NCBI GenBank assembly: GCA_013138865.1
Contig: WTBY01000015.1
Coordinates: 1 to 64,000, forward strand
Source: Helicobacteraceae bacterium
GTDB taxonomy: Bacteria > Campylobacterota > Campylobacteria > Campylobacterales > Sulfurimonadaceae
Reading direction: 5' to 3'
Length of the DNA: 64,000 nt
Shown: positions 1,900 to 61,860 of the stretch, piece after piece
Position numbering within the stretch: the first letter of the stretch is position 1
How the letters are laid out: every line of letters begins with the position of its first letter
Program-made: the position numbers and the translations under genes
The notes under the pieces: generated by a model
Database searches by the model: none
Seen by the model: only the letters and a program-made list of their open reading frames with translations
Told to the model about the DNA's origin: nothing

Positions 1900-1913
1900 T
1901 GCACTTAAGTGCA
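1900..1913. repeat. Palindrome TGCACTTAAGTGCA, copy 1
   Basis: A perfect 14 bp palindrome 20 bp before the start codon at 1933, between the promoter and the ribosome-binding site. First of 15 copies of the GCACTTAAGTGC core. Confidence 0.9.
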
Positions 1914-1932
1914 AGGGTGAGGGGATAATACT

Positions 1933-2133
1933 ATGACCAATATAAATATAGTACAAGATGATCTAGAGCACCAAACCCAAATGTGGATTGGAGGACAATT
2001 TATAGTAGGGTATGAGCAGTTTGATGTTGACCCAGAAACACAATCACGATTAGAAGGGATGTTGGAGAAAGCCTTCTTATATGGTGGATATGCTAAAGCA
2101 ACAGAAATAAAAGAAGTATTAAATATAACCTAA
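1933..2133 (+). CDS. Small protein of unknown function
   Basis: 66 residues, no recognised family. It has a GAGGGG ribosome site and is the first gene after promoter 1846 and palindrome copy 1. It is acidic overall, with a Trp/Gly/Tyr-rich middle. It probably belongs to the replication operon that runs on to the primase. Confidence 0.7.
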   Translation: MTNINIVQDDLEHQTQMWIGGQFIVGYEQFDVDPETQSRLEGMLEKAFLYGGYAKATEIKEVLNIT

Positions 2134-2147
2134 ACAGGAGAAGTCTC

Positions 2148-2612
2148 ATGTCAGTAACTATGACTAAAAAGAAAGTAGTGGCATCAAAGTCCCAAACCAT
2201 TAAAGATACTTTGTTTGAAGATCTGCAGGGGATGGTACCCGAACTAGTAAAGGCAACTACTAAAGTAAACGGTATTACTGCCAAACTAAAAATTGCCAAG
2301 CAAGACCAAGCCAAAGCAACCAAACCCTTCCTAGCACATATAGAAGCTATGGAGTTGGATCCTGATGATAAGTTATTGGTAAATGGTGAAGACGATGATA
2401 TTGCGGTATCAAGCGTACCCCACTCAAGACAGGTAATTGATAATAAAGCTATCTTTGATTTGTTGGAAAGTATCCAGCCCAACCTAGCCTATGAACTATT
2501 AAGCTTTAAATTGACAGATATTGATAAGTATCTTAACCCAGTACAGCAGGATCAAGTACTAGAACAAACACATAAGGGCGCACGTAAATTAAGTGTGAAG
2601 CCTCATGCCTAG
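2148..2612 (+). CDS. Protein of unknown function in the replication operon
   Basis: 154 residues starting after AGGAGAAGTCTC. A Lys-rich N-terminus is followed by helical, Lys/Ala/Gln-rich sequence and an acidic patch (GEDDD) in the middle. No family recognised. It lies between the helicase and primase genes, so a helper role in replication is possible but only inferred. Confidence 0.75.
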   Translation: MSVTMTKKKVVASKSQTIKDTLFEDLQGMVPELVKATTKVNGITAKLKIAKQDQAKATKPFLAHIEAMELDPDDKLLVNGEDDDIAVSSVPHSRQVIDNKAIFDLLESIQPNLAYELLSFKLTDIDKYLNPVQQDQVLEQTHKGARKLSVKPHA

Positions 2613-2823
2613 GTGCTTACCTATAGGAAAAATATCTGGTGAAGACTTAAAATCTTACAGTACTATTGTAGGAGATGAATTTTCAGAAGAAGAGTTTTTT
2701 CCAAAAAAGAGTGAAGGTATTAATAACCCTGATTTAGTTATGTATTGGCAAGAAGCGGTAGCCAATAAGAATACCTTCCTAGGGTTTGTGGATTGGTGCT
2801 ACCAACTAAAGGAACACCCTTAA
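2605..2823 (+). CDS. Small protein of unknown function before primase
   Basis: 72 residues overlapping the end of the preceding gene by 8 bp; its stop codon overlaps the primase start (TAATG). Such translational coupling supports a real gene. Acidic centre (DEFSEEEFF) and a Trp-rich C-terminus; no family recognised. Confidence 0.6.
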   Translation: MPRCLPIGKISGEDLKSYSTIVGDEFSEEEFFPKKSEGINNPDLVMYWQEAVANKNTFLGFVDWCYQLKEHP

Positions 2824-3770: not shown

Positions 3771-3795
3771 CAAACCCACCCTTAAAGCGTATAGT
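3767..3795 (+). promoter_or_regulatory. Early-type sigma70 promoter, copy 2
   Basis: TTGACA at 3767-3772, a 17 bp spacer and TATAGT at 3790-3795. The -35 box overlaps the primase stop codon. It drives the single-strand binding protein gene, which needs high expression. Confidence 0.85.
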
Positions 3796-6710: not shown

Positions 6711-6724
6711 TGCACTTAAGTGCA
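6711..6724. repeat. Palindrome TGCACTTAAGTGCA, copy 2
   Basis: Begins at the base after the stop codon of the preceding gene, 13 bp before the recA start at 6738. Confidence 0.9.
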
Positions 6725-9917: not shown

Positions 9918-9931
9918 TGCACTTAAGTGCA
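9918..9931. repeat. Palindrome TGCACTTAAGTGCA, copy 3
   Basis: Starts at the base after the RuvC-like stop codon and ends 15 bp before the next start at 9947. Confidence 0.9.
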
Positions 9932-9946: not shown

Positions 9947-10216
9947 ATGAAAACACTAGAACAACACTATAACCTAGTAAATATTGTAAGAGAAAGATTG
10001 CAAAAAGATATAGTTGATGCAATAGTAGAACCAGTTGTCCAAGAAGAACTCCGTAAGTTTGAGGAAGTAATCAGAGTAAGAATACGGAAGGAAGCCGAGA
10101 AAGTAGCCCTAACGGGGATAGACACTATGGATGACATATTGAGAGCAAGACAAGAATTGATAATATACCTTAAGTGGTCCGATGAAGAAGACAAGTTAGA
10201 AGTCACCAGCACTTAA
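9947..10216 (+). CDS. Helical protein of unknown function
   Basis: 89 residues, almost entirely charged helix, with an AGGGTG site. No family recognised. Its last two codons and TAA stop are provided by palindrome copy 4 (AGC ACT TAA), so the palindrome defines the C-terminus. Confidence 0.65.
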   Translation: MKTLEQHYNLVNIVRERLQKDIVDAIVEPVVQEELRKFEEVIRVRIRKEAEKVALTGIDTMDDILRARQELIIYLKWSDEEDKLEVTST

Positions 10217-10220
10217 GTGC
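10209..10220. repeat. Palindrome GCACTTAAGTGC, copy 4
   Basis: The 12 bp core without the outer T/A pair. It contains the stop codon of the preceding gene and lies 11 bp before the -35 box at 10231. Confidence 0.9.
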
Positions 10221-10230: not shown

Positions 10231-10258
10231 TTGACAAACGCATTAAACCTGATAGACT
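10231..10258 (+). promoter_or_regulatory. Early-type sigma70 promoter, copy 3
   Basis: TTGACA at 10231-10236, a 16 bp spacer and TAGACT at 10253-10258. Spacer and flanks are nearly identical to the copies at 19163 and 36719. Confidence 0.85.
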
Positions 10259-10316
10259 AAACGCATCCCATCAATAAATAACCGATGGATTTATATAAAT
10301 AACTAGGAGAAGCATC

Positions 10317-11198
10317 ATGGCAGTATCACCAACAATGGCAGTATTAAAAGGTGGCAAAGATAAGACAGCCACAGAAGCTACAAAAGAAACTAAGCCGAAG
10401 GTAGCAGCAAAGCCTAAAGCGAAAGCGAAACCTAAAGCTAAGAAAGTAGAAGTACAACAAGACATTATCATGACGATTGTGGCTGAGATTGAAAACCTTA
10501 AGCAAGATCAGGTAGTAACCCTTGGTACAACCTTACTAAACGAAACAGGCTTCAATAACTTCAAGCTTGGTGGTTTATTGGTACGAATCCAAGAAGAAGG
10601 TTGGTGGGATGATGGTGAGTCTGATAACTTCAAAGACTTCATTAACAATGTGTATGGACTAGGCTTCCGTAAAGCATCCTACTTAATGAATATTTACACA
10701 GTAATGGTAGAGTCAGGTGTATTGTGGGAACAGGTTGAATCACTAGGTTGGACTAAACTACGTGAATTAGTAAATATCCTAACACCAGATAATGTTGAAG
10801 AGTGGGTAGAACTTGCTAATGGTATGACTGTTATCCAACTACAAGAACATATCAAAGCTGAGAAAGCTAAGAATAGTCCTGATACTGAGAAGGTTGAAGC
10901 AGAAGTTAAAACTGTAACAACTAAAACCTTCAAGCTACACACAGATCAACTAGAAACAGTTGAGACTGCACTAGAACGTGCAAGAGACGAGGGGGAGACT
11001 GAGTATGATACGGTAGCCCTTGATTATATCTGTATGCGATACCTAAGTAATGATAGTGGTAAGGCTAAAGCAGAAGTAACTGAGAAGTTAGTACCACCCT
11101 CAGCAGAAGTATTTAAAACTTTGGGGGCGGAAGCAGTATTAGAATTATTCGAAGAAGCATTCCCAGATTTTGATATATCAGTAGGTGTACCAGAGTAA
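10317..11198 (+). CDS. Putative DNA-binding protein with Lys/Ala/Pro-rich N-terminus
   Basis: 293 residues with an AGGAGAAG site and its own promoter and terminator. Residues 15-45 are a basic Lys/Ala/Pro repeat like a histone tail. The middle (about 100-180) is a helical domain, FKDFINNVYGLGFRKASYL ... LGWTKLRELVNIL ... NVEEWVELA, similar in feel to helix-turn-helix modules of partition or plasmid regulatory proteins. The C-terminus is acidic. A single-gene, strongly expressed transcription unit next to a palindrome suggests a nucleoid, partition or regulatory protein, but no family can be named with confidence. Confidence 0.6.
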   Translation: MAVSPTMAVLKGGKDKTATEATKETKPKVAAKPKAKAKPKAKKVEVQQDIIMTIVAEIENLKQDQVVTLGTTLLNETGFNNFKLGGLLVRIQEEGWWDDGESDNFKDFINNVYGLGFRKASYLMNIYTVMVESGVLWEQVESLGWTKLRELVNILTPDNVEEWVELANGMTVIQLQEHIKAEKAKNSPDTEKVEAEVKTVTTKTFKLHTDQLETVETALERARDEGETEYDTVALDYICMRYLSNDSGKAKAEVTEKLVPPSAEVFKTLGAEAVLELFEEAFPDFDISVGVPE

Positions 11199-13862: not shown

Positions 13863-13876
13863 TGCACTTAAGTGCA
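13863..13876. repeat. Palindrome TGCACTTAAGTGCA, copy 5
   Basis: Lies 4 bp after the terminase stop and 19 bp before the GTG start at 13896. Confidence 0.9.
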
Positions 13877-16153: not shown

Positions 16154-16666
16154 TTGAACCAGCCAATAGACAGTATTACATGGGTACATGTTAATGACCT
16201 ATCAAGTAACCTATATAACCCAAACGTATGTTCGGGATTAGAGCATGACTTATTAGCCCACTCATTATTGACTAATGGCTGGATTCAACCTGTATTGGCT
16301 CACAAAGAGACCAACACTATTATCGATGGATTCCATCGGTGGAACCTAACCAGAACTAATACCGAGTTATTTAAAATGACAGACGGCAAGGTTCCAGTAG
16401 CCTTCCTAGATATTAGTGAAGCAGATCGTATGATGCTGACCATACGGATTAACCGTGCCAAGGGCGTACATGTAGCATTTAAGATGCATGACTTGGTATC
16501 CAGCTTAGTAAAAGACCACGAACTTACTGTGAACGAAATTGCTAAAGGTATCGGAGCACCGAAGCACGAGATTGAAACCCTATTACTTGAAGATGTATTT
16601 GAGAAGAAAGATGTAAAAAATACAGCTTATAGTAGAGCATGGAGACCACAACGAAATGCAAGTTAA
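16154..16666 (+). CDS. ParB/sulfiredoxin-fold protein, IbrB-like (paralogue 1)
   Basis: 170 residues from TTG 16154 with an AGGAGAG site. The ParB/Srx core is seen as LLTNGWIQPVLAHKETNTII then DGFHRW, the GxxR phosphate-binding motif. It lacks a clear helix-turn-helix DNA-binding domain of chromosomal ParB. IbrB proteins of this size are found next to IbrA PP-loop proteins, as here (IbrA-like gene at 13896). Likely ATP-binding; exact reaction unknown. Confidence 0.7.
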   Translation: MNQPIDSITWVHVNDLSSNLYNPNVCSGLEHDLLAHSLLTNGWIQPVLAHKETNTIIDGFHRWNLTRTNTELFKMTDGKVPVAFLDISEADRMMLTIRINRAKGVHVAFKMHDLVSSLVKDHELTVNEIAKGIGAPKHEIETLLLEDVFEKKDVKNTAYSRAWRPQRNAS

Positions 16667-17639: not shown

Positions 17640-17643
17640 AAAC

Positions 17644-18318
17644 ATGGCTATTAAAAAGACAACCGTTACGACAATAATTACAGCACAGAAACCCTTCTCA
17701 GAACTAACAGATCAGGAAATGTCAGATCCGTTTAATAATATTACCAGTATGGTGGAGAGTAAAGCCAAGACAGTAATCGTAATATTACCTGAAGGGTATG
17801 ATGAAGGTGGTCCGATAGGATACACCCGAGAGATACTAACCATACTAAGAGAAACGTATGAGCATACAGATGTAAGAAAGTGTCCTTGGGAATACTTCGG
17901 CTCAGGAATTAAGGGCGGATCTGTAGCAATTATCGCCTCAACTAAACCATTCGACATGGATACTGTAGAACTAACCCAAACAGTATTTAAAGATTATGTG
18001 GGGGAGGCAGTACGACACTCCCCTAAAGAACAACGCTTGAATGCCCTGTCACGAGGTACCCACCAGCGACATGGGTTAGAGTACTCTCATAACACTGCAT
18101 TACCACCAATAGGCAAGTGGGGAGAATCAAGACTACTAATAGAGGTATTGGTAAGTAAGGACGTAACAGCATATAGAAGACTCACTAGAACAGAGTTGGG
18201 TATGTTGTATGGGCTAGATATTGCCAATGATCCTAAAGATGTGAAACACCTTATACCCGTAGTAGTGGTGGGTACTATAATCGATGCCGTAGTTAAGGCT
18301 CATAACTTAAGCACTTAA
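17644..18318 (+). CDS. Protein of unknown function after the ParB cluster
   Basis: 224 residues from ATG 17644; ATG 17629 is an alternative and neither has a strong ribosome site. Alternating strands and helices (KTVIVILPEGYDEGG, GGSVAIIASTKPF, LIPVVVVGTIIDAVV) suggest a globular alpha/beta fold. No family recognised. Its stop TAA comes from palindrome copy 6 (AGC ACT TAA), just as in the gene at 9947. Confidence 0.65.
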   Translation: MAIKKTTVTTIITAQKPFSELTDQEMSDPFNNITSMVESKAKTVIVILPEGYDEGGPIGYTREILTILRETYEHTDVRKCPWEYFGSGIKGGSVAIIASTKPFDMDTVELTQTVFKDYVGEAVRHSPKEQRLNALSRGTHQRHGLEYSHNTALPPIGKWGESRLLIEVLVSKDVTAYRRLTRTELGMLYGLDIANDPKDVKHLIPVVVVGTIIDAVVKAHNLST

Positions 18319-18322
18319 GTGC
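18311..18322. repeat. Palindrome GCACTTAAGTGC, copy 6
   Basis: Contains the stop codon of the preceding gene and lies 18 bp before the GTG start at 18341. Confidence 0.9.
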
Positions 18323-20389: not shown

Positions 20390-20640
20390 TGACAGCACCT
20401 AAACCTAAGTGGGCACATAAAGCCACAACAGAAGAAGTTAAACCTTCTGACGAGGTGTGGACTATGAAGGATGGTACTAAGATAGAGGTAAAGGATATGG
20501 AAGAGAGCCATGCCAAGAACTGTCTTAGAATGTTGATCAGAAAGATTACTAAATTCAATCAAGCAAAACAGCACTTAAGTGCAATAGACCATGATGCCAT
20601 ACTGATGGACATCTACTCAGATAAATGGGGAGATAAGTAA
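20386..20640 (+). CDS. Small protein of unknown function
   Basis: 84 residues; two adjacent ATGs (20386 and 20389), the second better spaced from GGAG. Basic helical C-terminal half. Palindrome copy 7 lies inside and encodes His-Leu-Ser-Ala. No family recognised. Confidence 0.6.
   Translation: MMTAPKPKWAHKATTEEVKPSDEVWTMKDGTKIEVKDMEESHAKNCLRMLIRKITKFNQAKQHLSAIDHDAILMDIYSDKWGDK
20571..20582. repeat. Palindrome GCACTTAAGTGC, copy 7 (inside a gene)
   Basis: Lies within the coding region 20386-20640, in the frame that reads CAC TTA AGT GC, the same frame as in copies 10 and 12. Confidence 0.9.
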
Positions 20641-23987: not shown

Positions 23988-23999
23988 GCACTTAAGTGC
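23988..23999. repeat. Palindrome GCACTTAAGTGC, copy 8
   Basis: Between two genes, 14 bp before the ATG at 24014. Confidence 0.9.
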
Positions 24000-27653: not shown

Positions 27654-27906
27654 ACTACAAAGTAAACACGAAGAGTTGGAATTGGTTGTACAAAACCACA
27701 AGCAAAAAGAACAAGACCACCAGCTTGCACTTAAGTGCATACAGGGAGCATTAACTAATCTGTATGTAGATATGGAATTGTTAAAGTCAGGACAATGGGT
27801 ACCCGATAAAGATAGTGCTGAGGCTAGCCAAGATAATGTACTATACATAGCTGAGAAGTTAGGATTAGATCTCACCACCACTGAACTTCAGGAGAAAGAA
27901 AAATGA
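27628..27906 (+). CDS. Coiled-coil protein of unknown function
   Basis: 92 residues from the second of two ATGs (27625/27628), after AGGAGAAG. The first 55 residues are a coiled coil. Palindrome copy 9 lies inside and encodes Ala-Leu-Lys-Cys, a different frame from the other coding copies. Confidence 0.6.
   Translation: MGTLELLHRLQSKHEELELVVQNHKQKEQDHQLALKCIQGALTNLYVDMELLKSGQWVPDKDSAEASQDNVLYIAEKLGLDLTTTELQEKEK
27726..27739. repeat. Palindrome TGCACTTAAGTGCA, copy 9 (inside a gene)
   Basis: Inside the coiled-coil gene, read GCA CTT AAG TGC. Confidence 0.9.
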
Positions 27907-30483: not shown

Positions 30484-30863
30484 TGGAAGGACTACCACTC
30501 CTATGCCCGTACTGCAAAGGGTTCGCACAGTTAGTTGATAGCAAGGTAATTTATAAGCGGGGAGGGTATGGCATGATGTATTTATGTAAACCTTGTAATG
30601 CTTATGTGGGGTGCCATGGAGACACTAATATGCCTAAAGGTACCCTAGCAAACAAAGAGCTAAGAGAATCCCGTAAAACAGCACATGCTTTCTTTGATAA
30701 GATCTGGAAAGACAAACATCTAACCAGACACCAATCCTACAAGTGGTTGGCTAAGTCCCTGAATATCCAAGCACATAAGTGCCACATAGGTAGTTTTGGT
30801 GTAGAGGATTGCTCAAGAGTAGTTAAACTAGCTAAGACTAGACTAATAGAGTTGGAGGCTTAA
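30483..30863 (+). CDS. DUF3268-family zinc-finger protein
   Basis: 126 residues. CPYCKG near 8-13 and CKPCNAYVGCHGDTNMPKG near 35-53 are the DUF3268 zinc-finger signature, followed by ELRESRKTAHAFFDKIWK and a C-terminal helical part that ends with CSRVV. The family is widespread in phages and prophages with unknown role. Confidence 0.75.
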   Translation: MEGLPLLCPYCKGFAQLVDSKVIYKRGGYGMMYLCKPCNAYVGCHGDTNMPKGTLANKELRESRKTAHAFFDKIWKDKHLTRHQSYKWLAKSLNIQAHKCHIGSFGVEDCSRVVKLAKTRLIELEA

Positions 30864-31077: not shown

Positions 31078-33216
31078 ATGGCACATATCTTCGGATATAC
31101 CACAATGGCACAAACCAATACAGATACAGCTACAGTAGAGTTACTGGGAGGTAAGGGCTTAGGTTTAATCAATATGTCTATTCAGGGATTACCCGTCCCG
31201 ACAGGATTTGTTATCACAACAGATGTATGCAATACCTACCGTAAGAAGGAAAGCCTAGAAGCTAAAAATAACTACATTAGTCAACTAGTACAGACGCAAG
31301 TAATGCCATTGTATGAACAAATGTCTAATGAGTTAGGATATGCCCCTCTAGTATCAGTAAGGTCTGGGGCGCGAGTATCAATGCCGGGAATGATGGACAC
31401 CATACTTAATGTAGGATTGTCCGACACTACTATGCCCTACTGGAGAAAACACTTAGGAGTGATACCCGCCCTAGATAGCCAGAGACGGTTTATTCAAATG
31501 TATGGTGAGATTGTATTAGGGATTAGCCCTAGCATATTTGCTAATAAGTTAGACTTTGCTAAAGACAGTCAGGGGGTTAAGACAGACCAAGAACTATCAG
31601 CTAAATCACTACAATCTGTAATAGAGGCATACTTAGGTGTGTACCATCAACTTGGGGAGCAACTACCCCAGACTATATCAGAACAATTTGAAGGGGCTGT
31701 TAAGGCTGTATTTGATAGTTGGGACAATCCAAGAGCCAAGCATTATAGAAAGATGAATGGGTACTCCGATGAGTGGGGAACAGCAGTAACTATTCAAATG
31801 ATGGTGTTTGGTAATATGAATGATCAATCCTGCTCAGGAGTATTATTTACCAGAGACCCTTCAAATGGGAACAATGCAATCCTAGGAGAGTTCTTAGTGA
31901 ATGCACAAGGTGAAGATGTAGTGGCAGGAATCAGAACACCAGAACCACTAGAAGCAATGAACCAGTGGAATCCAGAGGTTCATGCGGAGTTACTAACCAC
32001 TGCCATTAATATGGAAACCACAGCCCTAGATATGCAGGACATGGAGTTCACAATACAAAGTGGAAAGCTATATATCCTCCAAACCAGAAATGGTAAAAGA
32101 ACCCCGAAAGCAGCTTTCAAGATAGCATACGACATGTATCAAGATAAGTTTATTACCAAGACTGAACTGAAGAAAAGAGTTACAGGTAATATGTATGAAG
32201 GGTTAGCAGGAACCAAGTTAGCACCCTCAGCAGAAAGTATTACCCCAGATGCTATTGGCTTACCAGCAGGGGGAGGGGTAGTTAAAGGAGCCATAGCCTT
32301 CTCAAATGATAAGGCAGTTGAATTATCTAAGAAGGGCAATGTAATCTTAGTAGCAAAAGAAACTACTCCAGATGATATTGTTGGGATGGAGGCGGCTGTA
32401 GGCATACTTACCAGTACAGGTGGAGTTACCAGCCATGCCGCAGTGGTTGCCAGAGGAATGGATACCGTATGTGTAGTGGGGTGCCAATCAATTAATGTTA
32501 AACCAGAAGACGGACTATACTTCACAAAAGATGATAGTCCGATACCTACCCTAGTAGCGGAGGGAGATATTATTACTATCGATGGAAGTACTGGGGCAAT
32601 ATGGCACAAGAACTTAGACCTAATAGAGGGTGAGACCTCAATGGAAGCAGAAGCAATTATAGACCTACTACTAAATAATAAAGATGTTGCCTATATAACC
32701 ACCACCCCAGAGGAAGGTAAGAAGTACACATGGCTGGAACCAACCCTCAATGACGAGGAAATGATGCAGCACTTAAGTGCCATGGTGGAACACAACACAG
32801 TTATAGTCGATTTGGATGATGTAATGAATCAACTAGATGAATATGATAGACAATACTACCACCTGCTAGATCCGACCTTAATGGCTATGTCCGTCTTAAA
32901 AGCTAGATTGACCCGCAAGATTGAGTTACTTGCCGAGTTCCCCCATAAGGATAAGGTGATCCTAAAAGTACCTAAATGGGGCAGTGGTATTGTAGGATCC
33001 GACTCAGGATACGAGGTTATAAGTGAAGCCGGAACCGTACAAGATATGATGAAGGGCGGGGCAGTAACTATAACAGAGCACTTCATTAAACAAGTGTTGG
33101 GAAGTAAAGCTGTGTACACACAACTAGTTAAGGTGATGAAAGACCAAGGCATAGAGATATTGAAAATGCCAAAACCTAAAGTGAAGGAGGTAGCCGTATA
33201 TGAACTGCTCGGGTAG
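31078..33216 (+). CDS. Pyruvate phosphate dikinase-like protein lacking the PEP domain
   Basis: 712 residues. The ATP-grasp domain is clear: LLGGKGLGL near 23, SVRSGARVSMPGMMDTIL near 93-110, VFGNMNDQSCSGVLFTRDP near 244 and NAQGEDVVAGIRTPEP near 275. The phosphohistidine domain has GGVTSHAAVVARGM with the catalytic His at 453, matching His455 of Clostridium PPDK. The normal C-terminal TIM barrel (about 340 residues with a CGE-type catalytic motif) is absent; after residue about 530 there are 180 unrelated residues. So it may take phosphate from ATP onto His453 but hand it to an unknown acceptor instead of pyruvate. It has its own promoter and leader, and tyrosine-phosphatase-like genes follow. 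The frame is intact, which argues against a pseudogene. Confidence 0.85.
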   Translation: MAHIFGYTTMAQTNTDTATVELLGGKGLGLINMSIQGLPVPTGFVITTDVCNTYRKKESLEAKNNYISQLVQTQVMPLYEQMSNELGYAPLVSVRSGARVSMPGMMDTILNVGLSDTTMPYWRKHLGVIPALDSQRRFIQMYGEIVLGISPSIFANKLDFAKDSQGVKTDQELSAKSLQSVIEAYLGVYHQLGEQLPQTISEQFEGAVKAVFDSWDNPRAKHYRKMNGYSDEWGTAVTIQMMVFGNMNDQSCSGVLFTRDPSNGNNAILGEFLVNAQGEDVVAGIRTPEPLEAMNQWNPEVHAELLTTAINMETTALDMQDMEFTIQSGKLYILQTRNGKRTPKAAFKIAYDMYQDKFITKTELKKRVTGNMYEGLAGTKLAPSAESITPDAIGLPAGGGVVKGAIAFSNDKAVELSKKGNVILVAKETTPDDIVGMEAAVGILTSTGGVTSHAAVVARGMDTVCVVGCQSINVKPEDGLYFTKDDSPIPTLVAEGDIITIDGSTGAIWHKNLDLIEGETSMEAEAIIDLLLNNKDVAYITTTPEEGKKYTWLEPTLNDEEMMQHLSAMVEHNTVIVDLDDVMNQLDEYDRQYYHLLDPTLMAMSVLKARLTRKIELLAEFPHKDKVILKVPKWGSGIVGSDSGYEVISEAGTVQDMMKGGAVTITEHFIKQVLGSKAVYTQLVKVMKDQGIEILKMPKPKVKEVAVYELLG
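32769..32780. repeat. Palindrome GCACTTAAGTGC, copy 10 (inside a gene)
   Basis: Inside the PPDK-like gene, in its non-conserved C-terminal part, read CAC TTA AGT GC (His-Leu-Ser-Ala). Confidence 0.9.
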
Positions 33217-34418: not shown

Positions 34419-34797
34419 ACCTAAGAAGATGTTCGGGGTAAAAATGGCGAAAGAGATTGATCGTCCATGTGATGTAGATATTCCAACTGAAGATTTCTCA
34501 GTACCAGATAAAAAAGTAATGGCATGGGGACTATTCCACGCCTACCGAGGAATCAAGAAGCATGGGGTTATTTACGCAGGCTGTATGGGCGGTATAGGTC
34601 GCACAGGATTATTCATGGCGTTAATGTTAAGACTAGCCTATGAAGCCAGAACATCAGATACCTCAGATAGAACCGATGAGCATATCGGCTACCTAAGAGA
34701 GCATTACCACCCACACTCAGTAGAGACCCCCGAGCAAAGAGAGTACGTCCGAAACTTCAACTTGTTTTGGTTAAAGCTAGCAGTACGATTCTTATAG
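34351..34797 (+). CDS. Tyrosine/dual-specificity phosphatase-like protein (PTP 1)
   Basis: 148 residues from ATG 34351 with AAAGG upstream, overlapping the previous gene. The P-loop YAGCMGGIGRTG has the CX5R signature, C78 and R84, with the following Thr-Gly and an upstream Asp-rich segment (DVDIPTEDFSVPDKK) that could hold the general acid. It would remove phosphate from protein or nucleotide substrates. Paralogous P-loop to the gene at 35937. Its stop overlaps palindrome copy 11. Confidence 0.7.
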   Translation: MPSIKFKTSKMVGIIHGGPYRNKPKKMFGVKMAKEIDRPCDVDIPTEDFSVPDKKVMAWGLFHAYRGIKKHGVIYAGCMGGIGRTGLFMALMLRLAYEARTSDTSDRTDEHIGYLREHYHPHSVETPEQREYVRNFNLFWLKLAVRFL

Positions 34798-34808
34798 CAC
34801 TTAAGTGC
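34797..34808. repeat. Palindrome GCACTTAAGTGC, copy 11
   Basis: Begins at the last base of the phosphatase stop codon, 13 bp before the promoter at 34822. Confidence 0.9.
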
Positions 34809-37604: not shown

Positions 37605-37829
37605 GTGATAGATACTAAAGTGGTAGAGGGATTGCATGCTGGTGATGTGATAGAAGCCGGAACATTATTTGGAGCACTAACATCAGAACCTATATGCTGG
37701 GAAGTAGTCAAGAAAGTAACCCCTACAAGGCTGCACTTAAGTGCATCATGGGAGGGAGTATTTATGGGTATGTACGATATGCACTTAGAGGGTGGTAAAG
37801 AAGAAACCCTAATACTGAGGAGGCTATAA
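37605..37829 (+). CDS. Small protein of unknown function
   Basis: 74 residues from GTG, one base after the previous stop. Beta-barrel-like pattern (GLHAGDVIEAGTLFGAL, WEVVKKVTPTRLHLSA). Palindrome copy 12 lies inside. Stop overlaps the next ATG. Confidence 0.6.
   Translation: MIDTKVVEGLHAGDVIEAGTLFGALTSEPICWEVVKKVTPTRLHLSASWEGVFMGMYDMHLEGGKEETLILRRL
37732..37745. repeat. Palindrome TGCACTTAAGTGCA, copy 12 (inside a gene)
   Basis: In the gene 37605-37829, read CTG CAC TTA AGT GCA (Leu-His-Leu-Ser-Ala). Confidence 0.9.
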
Positions 37830-44391: not shown

Positions 44392-44405
44392 TGCACTTAA
44401 GTGCA
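44392..44405. repeat. Palindrome TGCACTTAAGTGCA, copy 13
   Basis: In the 181 bp gap before the protease gene (44270-44450), which otherwise shows no gene, clear promoter or terminator. Confidence 0.9.
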
Positions 44406-44450: not shown

Positions 44451-45029
44451 ATGCGAGTACTTAAATACGACAATGAAAAACAAATTGTGTACGGAGAGAT
44501 TTATGCTCCGGGAGTACCCGATGCCCATGGGGATTTCATGACGGAAGACACCATTATTGATATGGCTCACAATTTCCTAGCTAATAACCGTGTTGAAAAG
44601 ATTGATGTAAATCATGACCACAATCAAATAAGCGCAGTAGTAGTTGAATCATTTATAGCACGTAAGAACGACCCAGACTTCATAGAAGGTTCTTGGGTTA
44701 CTGGCGTAAAAGTAAATGATCAGGATACGTGGAACAAGATCAAGAAAGGAGAACTTAACGGTTTCTCTTTAGATGGTAAAGCCCTCGGCTCTATGAAAGA
44801 AATAGAGATAGAAATCCCAGAGAGTGTGGAAGGACGTACCACAAAATCAGAAGAAGACAATCATGAGCATACCTTTACAGTCAAGTTTGACGAGGAAGGT
44901 AATTTCATGGGCGGAGGCACTGATGAAGTGAATGGTCATAGCCATAAAATCACGAAAGGGACAGTAACTGAGAGTGTTGAAGGACATAATCACAGGTTTT
45001 CATTTGTAGAGGTACTAACCAATGGCTAG
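44451..45029 (+). CDS. Prohead protease, XkdF-like
   Basis: 192 residues. IVYGEIYAPGVPDAHGDFM near 12-30, VNHDH near 54-58 (His), SWVTGVKV near 81 and NGFSLDG near 103-109 (Ser) match the serine prohead protease group that includes PBSX XkdF. The C-terminal 60 residues add three His-rich motifs (NHEHTF, NGHSHKI, EGHNHRF). It would cut scaffold and capsid N-termini during head maturation. No ribosome site precedes the only plausible ATG, so translation may be weak or coupled. Confidence 0.75.
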   Translation: MRVLKYDNEKQIVYGEIYAPGVPDAHGDFMTEDTIIDMAHNFLANNRVEKIDVNHDHNQISAVVVESFIARKNDPDFIEGSWVTGVKVNDQDTWNKIKKGELNGFSLDGKALGSMKEIEIEIPESVEGRTTKSEEDNHEHTFTVKFDEEGNFMGGGTDEVNGHSHKITKGTVTESVEGHNHRFSFVEVLTNG

Positions 45030-47813: not shown

Positions 47814-48020
47814 ATGGTTACAGTACAATTAGTGAGAGCCGCACGATACAATAATGCAAGTGTTACCTACCTACGAGGTGTACCTATGCAGGTGAGTGAT
47901 AAGTTAGCTAAGACATTACTAGCTGAAACAGACCAGCGTGACGTACCTTACTTCAAAACAGTAGAAACTACTGAAGAAGAAGAAACTGGTGCCCAAGGTG
48001 ACTCAGTAGTAAGCGTTTAG
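47814..48020 (+). CDS. Small protein of unknown function in the head module
   Basis: 68 residues. VTVQLVRAARYNNASVTYLRGVPMQVSD then an acidic tail resembles small phage proteins in which a strand pair is followed by a residue-rich tail. The stop codon overlaps palindrome copy 14. Confidence 0.55.
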   Translation: MVTVQLVRAARYNNASVTYLRGVPMQVSDKLAKTLLAETDQRDVPYFKTVETTEEEETGAQGDSVVSV

Positions 48021-48031
48021 CACTTAAGTGC
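48020..48031. repeat. Palindrome GCACTTAAGTGC, copy 14
   Basis: Begins at the last base of the previous stop, 20 bp before the ATG at 48052. Confidence 0.9.
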
Positions 48032-49835: not shown

Positions 49836-50624
49836 ATGGCACAGCATTTAGTAACATCAAATTATTACAGTGGTCAGGGCATCGTAATGATTGCCACTAA
49901 AAACTCTACAACAGGTGAGCCAGAAGGCTTTGTTCCTGTAGGTAACGTAACCGCACTGTCTCTTGAAACGTCAATCACTAAAGATGAGCATAAAGAATCG
50001 ACTTCAGGTTCTCGTGCCGTTGATAAAGTGTTAGCGACTGAAACAAGCATTTCATTCTCAGCCACTATGGAATCATTAAACCAAGAAAACTTGGCTTATG
50101 CTTTACGGGGCACCACTGCAGATATTCCAGCAGGTACACAAACAGTAACATCGTACACAGCACGACTAGGTAAGATCGAGCCATTAGGTCATATCAAAGT
50201 GTCGGCTGTAGTAATTCAAGATGATGCCGATACCAATACCTACGTAGAAGGTGACAACTATCGTTTAGATGCTGACACTGGCTCTATCTACATTATGACT
50301 GCAGCAGAGCAAACAGCAGCATTAGCAGTAAATTCAATCACTGACTTAGACACGCTCCATATTGCCTACAGTTTTGAAGACCAAAAAGTAATGAATGCTT
50401 TAACTGGTGCCGCAGAAGTTCGTTGGGTACGTTTTGAAGGTCTTAATACCGCAGACAGCAATGCTCCTGTAGTAGTAGATATTTTCAAAATGGAAGCTGA
50501 CTTGTTAGCAACACTTGCATTAATCTCAGATGATATTCAGTCTGCAGATTTAACAGGTGCTGTATTGTCTGACTCTACTCGACAATCAGGCTCTAAGCAC
50601 TTCAAGCAAACTAGCTTAACGTAA
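49836..50624 (+). CDS. Major tail tube protein, paralogue 1 (highly expressed)
   Basis: 262 residues with AGGAGC upstream. Shares YYSGQGIVM(I/L)AT, EGF(V/L)P(V/I)GNV, SIYIMTAAEQ and VRFEGLN with the next gene, about half of residues alike. The GGT/CGT/GAA/AAC codon bias equals that of the capsid gene, so this is probably the main tail tube subunit. Confidence 0.75.
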   Translation: MAQHLVTSNYYSGQGIVMIATKNSTTGEPEGFVPVGNVTALSLETSITKDEHKESTSGSRAVDKVLATETSISFSATMESLNQENLAYALRGTTADIPAGTQTVTSYTARLGKIEPLGHIKVSAVVIQDDADTNTYVEGDNYRLDADTGSIYIMTAAEQTAALAVNSITDLDTLHIAYSFEDQKVMNALTGAAEVRWVRFEGLNTADSNAPVVVDIFKMEADLLATLALISDDIQSADLTGAVLSDSTRQSGSKHFKQTSLT

Positions 50625-50634: not shown

Positions 50635-51429
50635 ATGGCAGTTCATAGCGTAGTATCAAAGTACTATTCTGGGCAAGGGATTGTCATGCTAGCCACACGC
50701 GATATTAATGGGGATGCGGAAGGATTCCTCCCCATTGGTAACGTATCAGAGTTAAAAGTATCTACCAGCATAGCAACCCTAGATCACAAGACCACAGAAC
50801 ACGGTACTAGTGGTATAGATAAGAAGCTACAAACAGAGACTGCAGTAAACATCTCTATGGTGTTTGAGTCTATTGATGCAGATAACCTTAAGCTAGGATT
50901 ACAAGGTGACCTAACAATAGTGCCTGCGGGATCAGGAATAGTAGGACCGAATACTACCTCAGTAGCCCTAGGTAGAAGCTATGACATAGGAGCCTTAAAG
51001 GTATCTAATGTTGTAGTTAAGAACTCAGCAGAAAACATTACCTACGAAGAAGGTAAGAACTACACTATCAATGCTAATTCAGGTTCGATATACTACATGA
51101 CAGCGGCTGAACAAGTCCTAGCATCACCTATCACCACTTTAGTGGATGCATCTGAAGTACACATTACTTCATACGACACAGCAGGCTACAAAGAAATACA
51201 CGCATTAACCCAAGACCTAGCCACAAGATGGTTAAGGTTTGAAGGGCTTAATACCGTAGATACAGAAGAACCTGTTATCGTGGATGTGTATAAATTTAGT
51301 ATAGGATCAATAGCAGAGTTATCGTTAATATCAGACGATATAGCTGGTCTTCCAATGGAGGGATCAGTACTACTAGATCCAACCAAATTGACCGGATCAA
51401 AATATTATAGGGTTCGGTCTACAACCTAG
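50635..51429 (+). CDS. Tail tube protein, paralogue 2
   Basis: 264 residues, 10 bp after its paralogue. Same fold by sequence but ordinary codon use, so lower expression; it may form a tube end, a minor ring or an alternative subunit. Its YYSGQGIVMLAT, FLPIGNV and SIYYMTAAEQ segments align directly with paralogue 1. Confidence 0.75.
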   Translation: MAVHSVVSKYYSGQGIVMLATRDINGDAEGFLPIGNVSELKVSTSIATLDHKTTEHGTSGIDKKLQTETAVNISMVFESIDADNLKLGLQGDLTIVPAGSGIVGPNTTSVALGRSYDIGALKVSNVVVKNSAENITYEEGKNYTINANSGSIYYMTAAEQVLASPITTLVDASEVHITSYDTAGYKEIHALTQDLATRWLRFEGLNTVDTEEPVIVDVYKFSIGSIAELSLISDDIAGLPMEGSVLLDPTKLTGSKYYRVRSTT

Positions 51430-51860: not shown

Positions 51861-52081
51861 CATGGTTTTCAGAAGTAGTGGAGGCATTAGTATCTAGTGG
51901 GCATACCAGTACCGAGGTGTTACAGTACACAACAAGACAGGCTATCGCGTACCATAGTTTAGCAATACGGAGAGTTAGTAAAGATCGTATGCTAGAAGCT
52001 ACAACTATGAGGGCGGCACACTTAGCCAATGATGATGAGTGGCAAAAGTATATGGGACTTCTAGGCAATGGCAAGTACTGA
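51441..52081 (+). CDS. Tail assembly chaperone GT (-1 frameshift product)
   Basis: A -1 shift at G GGA AAC moves the ribosome to the frame that continues KHGKPLVRG... to ILTWFSEVVEALVSS and stops at 52079-52081, giving about 213 residues. The T part (from residue about 112) has the usual helical content with EWQKYMGLLG at the end. The downstream frame has an ATG at 51734, but no ribosome site. Lambda and most long-tailed phages make GT this way. Confidence 0.8.
51767..51773 (+). promoter_or_regulatory. -1 ribosomal frameshift slippery site GGGAAAC
   Basis: In gene G frame the codons read TTG GGA AAC, so G GGA AAC is a textbook X XXY YYZ heptamer. The shifted frame remains open for 102 codons. 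Confidence 0.85.
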
Positions 52082-55000
52082 TTTAGAGATTGTAATACGG
52101 GCTAAGAATGAAGCCTCCAAAGTATTAGCAGATCTAACAAAGAAACTACAGGACGTAGATCGTGAGCTTAAGAAATTAGGCGGCACTAATACTGATGGTG
52201 TGTCGGAAGATTTAGAGGATGCGGCAGATGCTGCAGAGGATCTACAGGAAGGTCTTGAAGGTGCCTCAGAATCAGCAGAAGAGTTAGCCAACACTTCAGG
52301 CTTAGACGACATATCTGATGATTTGGATGAGGGTGCTGAATCAGCCAAACAACTAGAGAAAGATCTTGATACTGTAGCTAAAGCCGCTGGGGTAATTGGG
52401 GTAGCCATTACCGCGGCATTAGGTCTTAGTATTGCCAAGGCAGGAGAGTTCTCTCAAGCACTAGCAGAAGTATCAACCCTATTAGATACAACTGAAGTTG
52501 ATATGGACGGTGTTGCCAAATCAATTAAAGACCTATCCTCTGAGTTCGGGCAAGATAGACTACTAGCAGTAAAAGCGTACTACGACATCATATCTTCTGG
52601 CGCAACGGCAGGTGTGGACGCTAATACCAAACTAGAACAAGCAATGAAGCTTGCTTTAGGTGGAGCTACCGATGTAGCCACAGCCGCAGATGGTTTAACC
52701 ACGGTATTAAATGCCTATAATTTAGAAACCAGCCAAGCGGCAGAAGTTACTGATGTAATGTTTGCCACCATGAAAGGCGGTAAGACTACCATCCCTGAAT
52801 TGTCAGCATCAATGGCACAAGTAGCACCCTTTGCTGCAGCATTAGGCGTAGACTTTAAAGAAGTATCTGCGGCTATGATTGGTATGACCAAGCAGGGCAC
52901 CAGAACCTCCATAGGCTTCACCCAGTTAAAAGCATTGTTGCAGGGATTAGTACGCCCCACAGAAGGATTAGTAGCAGCCTTCAAAGAGTACTCAGGAACC
53001 ACTGCAGAAAACCTCCTGAGAACGGAAGGGTTAGGTGCGGCAATGGAAGTCTTAAATAAGGCTACCAATGGCAATAAAGGTCAACTGATACAGCTACTGG
53101 GGTCGGTAGAAGCAGTAACCGCGGCAATGCAATTATCAGGAGATAATGCATTTAGAATGGCTGAGGGCATGGCTTCTGTTGCAGCATCTACAGGAGAAGC
53201 AGATAGAGCCGTAGCTAAAATGGCTGAAGACCCAGCACACCAATTATCAACAGCACTAAAAGATATAGGAGATTTAGTTGATGCTATAGGACTAACCTTG
53301 CTCCCAGCATTAGCAGATGTTGCCGTTATATTTGGTGACTTAGCTAAAAGTATGGAGGAGTGGATTAAGGATAATGAGGTACTAGCAGGAATCATAATAG
53401 GTAGTATTGCAGTCTTTGGGTTATTAGCCACAGCTATTGGAGCCTTAAGTTTAGCCTTTGCCGGTGGTAAGGCTGGAATGTTAGCCCTACGCAATATTAT
53501 AAAAAGTGTAGGGGTAGAAGCCTTACTGACATCTACCAAGCTGAATTCAGCATACTCAGCTACAGCCACCTATGGGGCGGTATCAGCTAAATCAGCCGTA
53601 GGTGTAGGGGTATTAACTACAGCCATAAATGTACTGGCTAGAGCCACTCTAGTATTGTCTGCCTTATGGGGAGCCAAGAAAATATTAGATTTAGCAGGAG
53701 CAATGCTAGAAACTAAAAAGTATATGGACATAGCCTCAGACTCAGTAGGGCACCATGAAGATGTACTGAAGGAACTACTAGCTACCAAAGAACAGATATT
53801 AGCTAAAGAGTTAGCATTATCAGAAGGTAACAAGAATCTTAATGATAATAACCTTAAGGATCTAGAGAGCTATGAGAAAGACCTAAGATCTAGGCTAGCA
53901 AAAATACAAGAAGCCAAAGCAGATGCCGTAAGATCTGACGTGCAATTGGAATTATTTGGTGTTAGTTTTGGGGACACCGTATCAGATGCTGATAAAGCTG
54001 AGATAGAAGCGGAGTACCAGACCACACTATCAAGACTTGCTTCAGTAATAAAAGCACAAAGGCAGATCTCAACTACTGAAGCAGTAGTCCAACTAGAAAT
54101 AGCCAATGAGGAAGATTTCGAGCACATAGCAGAAACGGTGGACGCAGTTAGGGAATCGTTAGACACACTTAATGATGCTAATTACTCCACGTCCATATCT
54201 GAATTGGAGAGGCTAGGTAAGGCGGTAGACAAAGCCTTTAGTGGTAGCAGTGTTTTAGACCAACAGCAAGCCCACAGTGAGCTAGTGGCGGCTAAAATTA
54301 TTGCTGAAAGAAGGTATGCTCAAGTAGCTGTATCCATTGCAGAGAGAACAGCTATATCTCAGAAAAACATTATAGAAAGAACTATAACTGATGAGACTGA
54401 AAGGGCAGATGCTATCAAAGGTGTGGTAGAAACTCTTGGTGCAGATAGAATTGCCATTGCCCAAAGAACAGAATCAGCCCTAGCAGGATTACTTCAGACC
54501 TCAGAGGCTAAGTACGAGAAGTACGCAGCTAAAGTTAAATCCCTAGAAGCCTCCATTAATACTGAGGATGATAATTATGAGGGAGAGCAACAAGCTATCC
54601 TTGATAAGAGATTATCTGATTACCAAATATACCAGAACAGAAGAGAACAGCTAGAATCATTAGCTTCTGAAGCCACACGAGCATTAATCAATAAAGATTA
54701 TGATGAGCTAGAAGCTATAGGTAAGAAGCAGAAGGCTCTAGCTAAAGAGATAAGTACTGAAGTAACCAATCCTACTGGTGATGTTGTAATATCCCAGTAC
54801 AAGGCAGAACAAGAGTCTTTAGCACAGTTAAAAATAGGTCATGATAATGTAAACCTAGCTAACAAGAAAAGATTGGAAGATGCTGAACGTGCAGAGAAAG
54901 GTGAATTATCTAACCTAACCTCACTATCAGAAAGGCTAAATACCGTAAAAGATACTATTACAGCCTTACAGAAGGAAACATTAGAGTTAAATATTAATCC

Positions 55001-55637
55001 TAATGTCTCTAATGTTAGATCCACATTAGATAGCTTACTCAATGAATACACCGCAGTTGATATAGGTATTACTGTAGATCGTGAAGGGTTAGCAGAGGAT
55101 ATGCAATTAGCCTTAGATGCTTTAGGAGCAGGAGGAGACCTGTTACTTACACCAGAGATAGTACCCGATTCAAGGGAGATAGATGACAAAATTTCTGAGA
55201 TAGTAACCTCACTGACGAAAGAGTACACCGTAGTAATTAACTACAAAGAAAATAATAAACCTCAGTATATTACTAGGGCACAAGGTGGCGCTGTAGATGG
55301 ATATGCTACTGGGGGTAAAGTTACTGGACCGGGATCTGGAACTAGTGATTCCATTATGGCTATGTTGTCTAATGGTGAGTATGTAATTAGAGCCGCAGCA
55401 GTACAGAAATATGGGTTAAACCTCCTAGACATGATCAATGGTTTAAGCATGCCTAGCAGACCATCCTTTAAGTTTGCCACTGGAGGGTTAGTTGGACCGG
55501 ATACAGTATCTAGCCCTAATGAGGTAGTAGACGTAAATCTAACCTTCAATGCTAATAGCTACGAACTACGAGGATCTAGGGAGGAAGTTAAGAGATTGAC
55601 TACTGCCATGAAGAATATTACTAGAGGGCAATTGTAA
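52068..55637 (+). CDS. Tape measure protein
   Basis: 1189 residues, overlapping the GT stop by 14 bp. An acidic coiled-coil N-terminus (EDAADAAEDLQEGLEG), hydrophobic segments near 105, 440-470 (IIIGSIAVFGLLATAIGAL) and 510-540, long helical repeats near 580-980, and a Gly-rich C-terminal part (AQGGAVDGYATGGKVTGPGSG, then NGEYVIRAAAV) are typical of tape measures. It sets tail length and passes into the host membrane at DNA entry. The length corresponds to a tail of roughly 150-180 nm by the usual helix rule (inference). Confidence 0.9.
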   Translation: MASTDLEIVIRAKNEASKVLADLTKKLQDVDRELKKLGGTNTDGVSEDLEDAADAAEDLQEGLEGASESAEELANTSGLDDISDDLDEGAESAKQLEKDLDTVAKAAGVIGVAITAALGLSIAKAGEFSQALAEVSTLLDTTEVDMDGVAKSIKDLSSEFGQDRLLAVKAYYDIISSGATAGVDANTKLEQAMKLALGGATDVATAADGLTTVLNAYNLETSQAAEVTDVMFATMKGGKTTIPELSASMAQVAPFAAALGVDFKEVSAAMIGMTKQGTRTSIGFTQLKALLQGLVRPTEGLVAAFKEYSGTTAENLLRTEGLGAAMEVLNKATNGNKGQLIQLLGSVEAVTAAMQLSGDNAFRMAEGMASVAASTGEADRAVAKMAEDPAHQLSTALKDIGDLVDAIGLTLLPALADVAVIFGDLAKSMEEWIKDNEVLAGIIIGSIAVFGLLATAIGALSLAFAGGKAGMLALRNIIKSVGVEALLTSTKLNSAYSATATYGAVSAKSAVGVGVLTTAINVLARATLVLSALWGAKKILDLAGAMLETKKYMDIASDSVGHHEDVLKELLATKEQILAKELALSEGNKNLNDNNLKDLESYEKDLRSRLAKIQEAKADAVRSDVQLELFGVSFGDTVSDADKAEIEAEYQTTLSRLASVIKAQRQISTTEAVVQLEIANEEDFEHIAETVDAVRESLDTLNDANYSTSISELERLGKAVDKAFSGSSVLDQQQAHSELVAAKIIAERRYAQVAVSIAERTAISQKNIIERTITDETERADAIKGVVETLGADRIAIAQRTESALAGLLQTSEAKYEKYAAKVKSLEASINTEDDNYEGEQQAILDKRLSDYQIYQNRREQLESLASEATRALINKDYDELEAIGKKQKALAKEISTEVTNPTGDVVISQYKAEQESLAQLKIGHDNVNLANKKRLEDAERAEKGELSNLTSLSERLNTVKDTITALQKETLELNINPNVSNVRSTLDSLLNEYTAVDIGITVDREGLAEDMQLALDALGAGGDLLLTPEIVPDSREIDDKISEIVTSLTKEYTVVINYKENNKPQYITRAQGGAVDGYATGGKVTGPGSGTSDSIMAMLSNGEYVIRAAAVQKYGLNLLDMINGLSMPSRPSFKFATGGLVGPDTVSSPNEVVDVNLTFNANSYELRGSREEVKRLTTAMKNITRGQL

Positions 55638-58332: not shown

Positions 58333-58338
58333 CCACAT

Positions 58339-60822: not shown

Positions 60823-60847
60823 AAACTAATACGAGGAACACGACACC

Positions 60848-61642
60848 ATGGCTATCAATGTATCTAATCTAGAAATACAACTATCTGGGGGCGCGGCTAA
60901 CTCAGATCAGAATGCTAGTCTTGGTGGTATCATCTCCAATGTTAGAGTACTAGCACAATCAACATCAGGTATTAGTACAGTAACAGGTGTTGTAATAGAT
61001 GATGCTAGCGGTAATGCTCTAGGGGACGGAACCTTATCATTCACCTATAATGGTGGTACAGGTAAAACCTTATCATGGCAGGACTTTGCCGATGGTAGTG
61101 CAGGATCATCTATTGATGTGGATGTTGACGGTACTTATGCAATAGCAAGCTCTGGTGGAGGCTACCTATTCGTAACAGTAACATCAGCCTCATTAGCAGT
61201 AGCAGACCAGAGTGATACCATTACAGTCACCAATGTTACCAATGGTACCTTCGATGATATTAGCTCCTCTGAATCCTTTAATGGGGACACTGAGTATCGT
61301 GGGTTTTATATTAAAAATACCCATGGAATCGACACAGCATTTGGTGTAAAAATTTGGATAGATTCCCAACCAGTAGGAGCCGACTCATTAGCCATTGGAG
61401 TAGATCCAGCAGGGGTAGGTGATGGTAGTACAGGGGGTGTGGCTGTAACTATAGCTAATGAAGGAGTAGCCCCATCAGGAGTAACCTTCACCACTCCGGG
61501 ATCTCAGGGCGCAGGTATATTGATTGGTGACTTATTGCCGGGTCAGTGTGCGGCATACTGGCAACGAAGAGTAATTCCAGCAGAAACAACAGTGAAGACA
61601 CTTAACGATGTAAGTACGTTAGGTTTCTCAGCGTTCTTATAA
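60848..61642 (+). CDS. Tail structural protein, Ser/Thr/Gly-rich
   Basis: 264 residues. Low-complexity beta-sandwich character (LSGGAANSDQNASLGG, VTSASLAVADQSDTITVT). Strand-rich, with GGYLFVTVTS; may be an Ig-like or fibre shaft protein. The stop overlaps the next start. Confidence 0.5.
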   Translation: MAINVSNLEIQLSGGAANSDQNASLGGIISNVRVLAQSTSGISTVTGVVIDDASGNALGDGTLSFTYNGGTGKTLSWQDFADGSAGSSIDVDVDGTYAIASSGGGYLFVTVTSASLAVADQSDTITVTNVTNGTFDDISSSESFNGDTEYRGFYIKNTHGIDTAFGVKIWIDSQPVGADSLAIGVDPAGVGDGSTGGVAVTIANEGVAPSGVTFTTPGSQGAGILIGDLLPGQCAAYWQRRVIPAETTVKTLNDVSTLGFSAFL

Positions 61643-61839
61643 TGACTAGAAAAACTATAGCCTTCTACAAGGAAGAGAATGCCGAACTATTAAAGCAACT
61701 ACACGCTACCGATGATAAGTTACGGAAGTATAAAGCAGTGAAGGGGCTAACCAAATCGATGAATGATACTATGGTGGCTAGGCGTAGAATTGTTGAATTA
61801 GAGCAGCAGGTTAAAAACCTACAAGACAAAAATAACTAA
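61642..61839 (+). CDS. Small coiled-coil protein
   Basis: 65 residues, nearly all coiled coil (ENAELLKQLHATDDKL ... RIVELEQQVKNLQDKNN). Likely a trimerising or adaptor helix in the tail; TAATG overlap with the previous gene. Confidence 0.6.
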   Translation: MTRKTIAFYKEENAELLKQLHATDDKLRKYKAVKGLTKSMNDTMVARRRIVELEQQVKNLQDKNN

Positions 61840-61846
61840 ACAGTAG

Positions 61847-61860
61847 TGCACTTAAGTGCA
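61847..61860. repeat. Palindrome TGCACTTAAGTGCA, copy 15
   Basis: Seven bp after the previous stop and 14 bp before the GTG at 61875. The previous copy is 13.8 kb away, the largest spacing in the window. Confidence 0.9.

Follow-up and report, generated by a model that had tools for sequence, protein, structure and literature searches.

Why does one perfect 12-bp palindrome, GCACTTAAGTGC, recur along a stretch of viral DNA, and what might read it? The window, by which we mean the whole 64-kb stretch that was analysed, contains 15 copies without a single mismatch (Table 1), while about 0.003 would be expected from its base composition (40.8% G+C). The number of copies and the claim that chance predicts far fewer than one had both been put forward in a preliminary description of this DNA, and both hold. 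About half of the starts given there are also right, and about half lie one base early, the 14-mer TGCACTTAAGTGCA having sometimes been counted.

A palindrome with sharp limits and a preference for gene junctions

When up to two mismatches to GCACTTAAGTGC were allowed, the window yielded 17 matches, compared with 2.25 ± 1.49 in dinucleotide shuffles. As these include just one copy with one mismatch (Table 1) and one with two (19925), the palindrome family is sharply bounded. The base following the 12-mer is A in 14 of the 15 copies, and the base preceding it is T or A, again in 14 of 15. Flanking sequence differs from copy to copy, and since the flanks do not match we regard the palindrome as a site and not as part of a longer repeat.

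Eleven of the window copies are found at gene junctions and four within genes, as described before. It was also correct that the palindrome takes part in stop codons: its internal TAA is the stop at 10209 and 18311, while at 34797 and 48020 its first base is the last base of the stop codon. The distance to the next start, previously given as usually 13-33 bp, could be narrowed to 15-21 bp for eight junction copies, and three others are further away (47 bp at 44393, 74 bp at 34797 and 97 bp at 10209).

Two more copies lie beyond the window (contig positions 75488 and 87794), which makes 17 exact copies on the circular phage contig, here called C79. On this contig 11 of 18 sites are in short gaps before genes, compared with 2.6 expected, and no other 12-bp palindrome is present twice. 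The remaining ~2.94 Mb of the 3.03-Mb, 82-contig assembly contain one copy of GCACTTAAGTGC, and 100 related bacterial genomes contain 0-2 copies each. The 12-mer is therefore not equally common in the host, a point that had been raised as bearing on a specific function, and an origin as a host motif or by chance was rejected on these counts.

Table 1. Palindrome copies and associated features in the window.
Feature	Position	Strand	Context	Basis
Palindrome copy	1901..1912		~20 bp 3' of predicted start point of promoter 1845; 21 bp 5' of ORF 1933	exact match
Palindrome copy	6712..6723		between g10 and RecA-like gene g11	exact match
Palindrome copy	9919..9930		between RuvC-like g15 and g16	exact match
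Palindrome copy	10209..10220		directly 5' of g17 promoter; gives g16 stop codon	exact match
Predicted g17 promoter	10231..10259	+	-35 TTGACA 10231-10236, -10 near 10254-10259; one of 13 TTTGACAAA promoters	
g17, candidate binding protein, 293 aa	10317..11198	+		homologs, phrog_17202, model
Palindrome copy	13864..13875		just 3' of large terminase gene; same position in relative G100	exact match
Palindrome copy	18311..18322		stop codon of ORF 17581-18318; 19 bp to next start	exact match
Palindrome copy	20571..20582		within ORF 20386-20640	exact match
Palindrome copy	23988..23999		between ORFs 23411-23986 and 24014-24292	exact match
Palindrome copy	27727..27738		within ORF 27625-27906	exact match
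One-mismatch copy GCACATAAGTGC	30771..30782		within ORF 30483-30863; possibly a weak site	
Palindrome copy	32769..32780		within PPDK-like gene	exact match
Palindrome copy	34797..34808		13 bp 5' of -35 box (promoter 34821); overlaps stop codon	exact match
Palindrome copy	37733..37744		within g78; exact copy at matching place in G100 (72567)	exact match
Palindrome copy	44393..44404		upstream of capsid-protease gene g84	exact match
g84, head maturation protease	44451..45029	+		phrog_15223, E 3.6e-74
Palindrome copy	48020..48031		overlaps g88 stop, before g89; same place in G100 (83484)	exact match
Palindrome copy	61848..61859		between g103 and g104	exact match

The contig is a circular phage genome

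C79, which includes the window, is 88,179 bp long and has an exact terminal overlap of 127 bp, for which reason we take it to be a complete circle of 88,052 bp. It represents a tailed phage, and almost all of its genes lie on the same strand. Using tblastn to annotated relatives together with protein-family matches, we assigned genes for replication and recombination (DnaB, primase, ssDNA-binding protein, helicase, RecA, Holliday-junction resolvase, exonuclease and RuvC) as well as terminase, a PPDK-like protein, DNA polymerase, portal, protease, capsid and tail genes. The portal protein is 44-47% identical to those of Stenotrophomonas phage DLP5, Rhodobacter phage RcZahn and Rhizobium phage RHph_Y1_11. 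A megablast of the first 25 kb of the window against phages gave no match, neither the portal nor the DNA polymerase, scanned as single sequences, had relatives in viral or genome contigs, and the large ORF 52068-55637 matched one 5-kb contig only.

The host is probably a campylobacterotal bacterium, provided that the contig was correctly binned, because a ParB gene on another contig of the assembly resembles that of Sulfurimonas. With no match to the tyrosine integrase family PF00589 on C79, the idea of an integrating prophage was rejected. The ParA-type ATPase family PF13614 had no match on C79 and eight elsewhere in the assembly. As neither a tyrosine integrase nor ParA was found, C79 could be either a phage-plasmid or a lytic phage in the course of replication.

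The early half of C79 carries 13 near-identical forward promoters (TATTTGACAAACG with a -10 box like TAGACT, TAGA[CA]T), which are located at window positions 1845, 3766, 10230, 19162, 22705, 24736, 25484, 29444, 31010, 34821 and 36718 and, beyond the window, at contig positions 84048 and 86214. The TTGACAAAC box of these promoters also precedes g17 in many related phages.

Related phages carry sites of the same geometry with other letters

A de novo motif search in each genome revealed that nine other fully read phages or contigs of this lineage (e.g. DLP5, RcZahn, SIO-2 and KarBoss) have a dispersed 14-bp near-palindrome of their own, and the distant RcDurkin and SM1 likewise. Most often the arms read TGCA...TGCA with 6 bp between them, which places them ten bases or about one DNA turn from arm to arm, and the core sequence is phage-specific. 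DLP5 has 27 exact copies of TGCAATCAATTGCA; RcZahn has 27 TGCA-N6-TGCA matches of the form TGCAAT[CT]AA[TC]TGCA; RHph_Y1_11 has 15 copies of GTGCAACAAATTGCAC plus variants; and the site of SIO-2 is TGCACTTAATTGCA. KarBoss carries 26 sites of the form TGCA[CG]TTAATTGCA and SM1 30 of the form TGCAA[AG]CGCTTGCA, while RcDurkin, with the site TGCAATCGATTGCA, has 31 TGCA-N6-TGCA matches and 40 copies of CAATCGATTG. In 18 related viral records TGCA-N6-TGCA occurred 447 times, compared with 14 for the reversed control pattern. The nearest relative, record G100 (g17 58% identical), has 16 exact copies of GCACTTAAGTGC in addition to one-mismatch forms.

Where g17 homologs have no TGCA sites close by, at least two clades proved to have altered arms, TGAC...GTCA and TGAT...ATCA. 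Sites of the TGACATTAATGTCA type occur eight times in the 35 kb of locus L034, about every 4-5 kb, and TGATCTTAGTATCA is repeated along the contig of L039/L045; both altered sites are also present upstream of g17. Arms and core change together within a phage. This joint change and the intragenic sites are left unexplained by module boundaries alone, one of the roles proposed at the outset. The preliminary description had also asked whether relatives keep the genes and lose the palindromes; the relatives keep them, with conserved geometry and a phage-specific sequence. The orientation of asymmetric sites relative to transcription is mixed among relatives (23:12, 14:4, 10:17 and 12:12). Members of this group differ in lifestyle: RcZahn is reported to be virulent (PMC8601537), DLP5 was isolated as a phagemid with a plasmid lifestyle (PMC5834331, PMC7326821), and VHS1 lysogens keep the phage extrachromosomally (PMC3148565).

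Conserved places and even spacing

Matching places by their flanking genes, we found that C79 and G100 share sites before g134, between g2 and g4, before g17, after the terminase gene, within g78, before the protease gene, and between g88 and g89. Over a wider range, scanning with a weight matrix per genome placed a site 28-139 bp ahead of the protease-gene ortholog in all ten genomes. No other site is as well conserved, and in C79 g84 is the first gene to follow it. A site ahead of the g17 ortholog was counted automatically in seven of the ten, to which inspection by eye added RcZahn (58281) and RHph (a degenerate TGAAATAAATTGCA). For the g11 ortholog a site at 21-22 bp was found in four of ten genomes, and no other conserved gene in the ten came near the protease gene and g17 in having a conserved preceding site. 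By arithmetic from site densities, the conservation at the protease gene has a probability of about 1e-8 by chance after correction for 34 genes, or ~1e-4 to 1e-3 once the general preference for gene ends is allowed for.

This general preference was seen in all ten genomes (P 1e-2 to 1e-9, computed on forward-strand genes only), with a large share of sites still inside genes; in DLP5 intragenic sites are numerous. A spacing test, which is independent of gene calls, showed that the sites are more evenly spaced than random in six of the ten genomes (DLP5, RcZahn, KarBoss, G101, G103 and G105; P <= 0.0055). The effect was borderline in RHph and SIO-2 (0.035 and 0.045), not significant in C79 (P 0.19) and absent in G100.

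The sites accompany g17 and precede its promoter

Homologs of g17 were found in 57 phage records, and alignment of g17 gave 49 viral loci. Among the orthologs are DLP5 gp066, RcZahn gp66 and KarBoss CILADHAE_00052. In the 884 kb around the g17 homologs of these loci, TGCA-N6-TGCA was present 223 times where 11.6 would be expected, while seven other 4-mer palindromic arms averaged 11.9 and other spacings 15.8. The association was also approached from the opposite side by a blind search for an exact 14-mer. Site-rich contigs carry g17 (G258 with 37 sites and G269 with 28), which is absent from eight others, 51-298 kb long, whose 1-8 sites amount to background; fragments that are short were regarded as uninformative where they had several sites but lacked g17. 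The g17 loci L041, L051, L055 and L068 had no clear site. The gene usually adjoins that for a RuvC-type resolvase, and where BLAST fails, in RcDurkin (gp82) and SM1 (gp50), a g17-like gene could be recognised that adjoins RuvC and has a site upstream.

In ten g17 promoters, representing nine distinct phages since L064 is a copy of DLP5, 7-9 bp separate the end of the site from the -35 box, so that the site is centred near -51 and lies on the DNA face used by many regulators. The position of the C79 copy directly ahead of the g17 promoter is conserved in distant phages. In G100 (L029) two palindromes stand in tandem, 24 bp apart, 5' of the g17 promoter (40453 and 40477). A site ahead of g17 promoters is the trace that would be expected from autoregulation by a sequence-specific protein; the conserved target of another regulator would look alike, and co-occurrence by itself is not enough to single out g17 from among the conserved proteins of the lineage as the candidate binder.

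Predicted features of the g17 protein

The g17 product belongs to PHROG 17202, a family of unknown function, and matched none of the described DNA-binding families. We modelled it with AlphaFold2 on a 44-sequence alignment (pLDDT 80). The model has a confident helical domain at 50-186 with an HTH-like pair (105-113/117-133), of which the second helix opens with the near-invariant R118-K119-A120-x-Y122. A C-terminal segment of one beta strand and two helices (201-243; pLDDT 87 when modelled alone) contains an invariant F205-K206 followed by the two helices.

Compared with PDB folds, the full model gave non-significant matches only, e.g. Raf1. In the viral fold library its neighbours were repeatedly ParB-like and DUF3102 phage proteins, with non-significant E values, and g17 is without a ParB_N domain. 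The neighbours of the tail segment were NikR, ParD, MazE and TCP domains (E >= 1.6, non-significant). Sequence profiles found no ribbon-helix-helix family match for g17; the strand-helix-helix order and these non-significant fold neighbours suggest that the tail may be a ribbon-helix-helix. Among the binders proposed beforehand, the 10317-11198 product, i.e. g17, is the one that we favour, while those encoded at 23411-23986 and 25781-26424 had no relatives in the families searched.

What the sites may do

Judged from these sequence comparisons, a phage-made DNA-binding protein that acts across the whole viral genome very probably docks at the palindrome. That the copies are DNA sites for a protein of this kind is strongly supported, and such sites could be either operators or partition sites, two of the roles suggested earlier. 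On balance, and with modest confidence, we favour a phage-encoded regulator or architectural protein, most likely an autoregulated g17, that binds the double-stranded palindromes genome-wide in the manner of stoperators. Such a protein, probably dimeric or paired, would recognise the palindrome at many places in the genome, and g17 and its orthologs would control their own promoter from the site centred near -51. Bound at its sites, most of which stand at the ends of genes and ahead of ribosome-binding sites, it would regulate transcription or block its passage throughout the phage, and the site in front of the capsid protease gene would let it do so where the head/tail operon begins. We infer that g17 binds the sites and that binding limits or shapes transcription; limiting or timing transcription genome-wide is most simply the role of a protein with 17-60 binding places, mostly at gene ends. 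Several features count against this regulatory reading: g17 resembles no described DNA-binding family and has no significant match among solved structures, the asymmetric sites are mixed in orientation, and a palindrome at -51 lies clear of the promoter, whereas the site of a classical repressor would overlap it. The even spacing and the many intragenic sites, as in DLP5, fit a structural role equally well.

Such a structural role would be that of centromere or nucleoid sites, at which a ParB-like phage protein (g17 or another) condenses, protects or partitions a circular extrachromosomal genome. We regard this as the main rival account, possible but rather unlikely. It agrees with the even spacing in six of ten genomes and in L034, with the intragenic sites, with the phagemid state of DLP5 and the extrachromosomal VHS1 lysogens, with the ParB-like neighbours of g17 in the viral fold library, and with C79 being circular and without a tyrosine integrase. 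However, RcZahn has the sites though it is reported to be virulent, the two ParB_N proteins of C79 (g24 and g25; 167 and 159 aa) are short and consist of ParB_N only, and the strong enrichment before start codons together with the site ahead of the g17 promoter points to gene control. A classical ParABS system was rejected, as C79 has no ParA ATPase by PF13614. The regulatory and the centromere or nucleoid reading are compatible and do not exclude each other. Tentatively, and with no great expectation of being right in every part, one may picture the new g17 family nucleating a genome-wide nucleoprotein structure at phage-specific, often evenly spaced 14-bp palindromes; this would silence or time transcription and at the same time organise the chromosome, both in lytic members and in those with extrachromosomal lysogeny, and arms and core would drift from phage to phage like an immunity or incompatibility code.

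It is improbable that a different conserved phage regulator binds the sites (e.g. g9, g18 or the O-like initiator g133), with g17 as one of its targets. In its favour are the conservation of several proteins across all relatives and the matches of g9 to a 'transcriptional regulator' PHROG and of g133 to a replication initiator with a helix-turn-helix. Yet the genes for g9, g18 and g133 are without a conserved promoter site, which only g17 and the protease gene have, g9 is poorly conserved, and a g17-like gene next to RuvC with a site upstream is found even in RcDurkin and SM1.

An element acting in RNA, as intercistronic hairpins for mRNA processing or translational control, has very little probability in our judgement, and the RNA processing sites proposed at the outset are accordingly disfavoured. 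Many copies do lie 15-21 nt ahead of start codons, and a 5-bp stem closing a UUAA loop is possible in the C79 version. Against this, the fifth, inner pair is A.C, C.U or similar in 12 of 28 sites in RcZahn, 12 of 43 in KarBoss and 23 of 59 in G101, a loss of pairing in roughly a quarter to two fifths of relatives' sites; predicted folding energies are weak; and compensatory changes preserving the stem were not found in relatives, where the inner pair is often mismatched. Because of this broken pair, and because copies also occur 5' of promoters (outside the regulated transcript), inside genes and in both orientations, we read the sites as DNA. Finally, a neutral or selfish repeat, or a motif of chance or host origin, has nothing in favour besides the repeat itself, is at odds with the near absence from host and unrelated viruses, the places conserved between close and distant relatives and the differing flanks, and is for practical purposes refuted by the g17-locus enrichment, the conserved places and the blind contig search.

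Relation to known systems

The stoperators of mycobacteriophage L5 are 13-bp asymmetric sites; a monomer binds them, and their orientation strictly follows that of transcription (PMC9283540). The present sites resemble those of L5 and cluster A in that tens of short sites are spread over the genome, mostly in short gaps before genes, with phage-specific sequence variants and one proposed phage-encoded binder. In contrast, they are 14-bp palindromes, have no fixed orientation and are also intragenic, and at least one member of the lineage (RcZahn) is reported to be virulent. Among the candidate proteins scanned, none matched an L5-repressor-like family.

The SPBRE elements of Bacillus phage SPbeta are likewise dispersed operator-like repeats recognised by a phage regulator, with a sequence and a protein that are probably different from those of the system described here. 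The sites of parS/ParB and the dispersed centromere sites of the phage-plasmid N15 are palindromic and 14-16 bp long. Similarities to these are the length and symmetry of the sites, the ParB-like fold neighbours of g17 and the extrachromosomal lysogens of some members, whereas C79 has no ParA that we found and its sites number in the tens genome-wide instead of forming a cluster or being few. Operators of the CopG-type ribbon-helix-helix proteins contain TGCA subsites, and here too there are two TGCA subsites with arms 10 bp (one DNA turn) apart and a beta-helix-helix tail in g17; unlike CopG-type proteins, g17 has no sequence match to RHH families, and its NikR, ParD and TCP fold matches are non-significant.

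Dispersed phage operators are thus a known kind of element, while the palindrome is undescribed in the papers found and the g17 family is uncharacterised. Palindromes go unmentioned in the RcZahn and DLP3 papers, and six versions of the motif appeared in no phage paper found, subscription journals lying outside the literature covered.

What began as one curious repeat is a lineage-wide system with a named candidate protein, spanning phages of Vibrio, Rhodobacter, Rhizobium, Stenotrophomonas and Pseudomonas and here, probably, of a campylobacterotal host. It bears on whole-genome control in large siphophages with mostly one direction of transcription. As each phage has its own site, the pairs of binder and site form a natural set for studying changes of specificity. 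Several members can be cultured and DLP5 is maintained as a plasmid, which brings tests of the idea within early reach. Should the sites determine immunity or incompatibility, their code would predict which of these phages can share a cell.

Other features of the contig

Two repeated 5' leaders, AAAAGGAACTTA..ATG and CCCACGGAGGGT..ATG, precede genes in the window (19224, 22771, 25554, 29527 and 29933, 31078, 34882, 36782), and CCACGGAGGG-like leaders are also present in RHph_Y1_11 and in the viral loci L033, L050 and L075. A PAPS-reductase/DndC-like protein and the two adjacent short ParB_N-only proteins are encoded at 13896-15074 and 16656-17639, a pairing that resembles the IbrA/IbrB regulators. 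The PPDK-like (pyruvate phosphate dikinase) protein at 31078-33216 is common to the phage lineage, and tyrosine-phosphatase-like proteins are encoded near it (34318-34797 and 35937-36710). A Dam-type adenine methyltransferase gene is found at 28069-28563. Two adjoining paralogs of the major-tail-protein type (DLP5 gp014), at 49836-50624 and 50635-51429, both match one and the same gene of G100.
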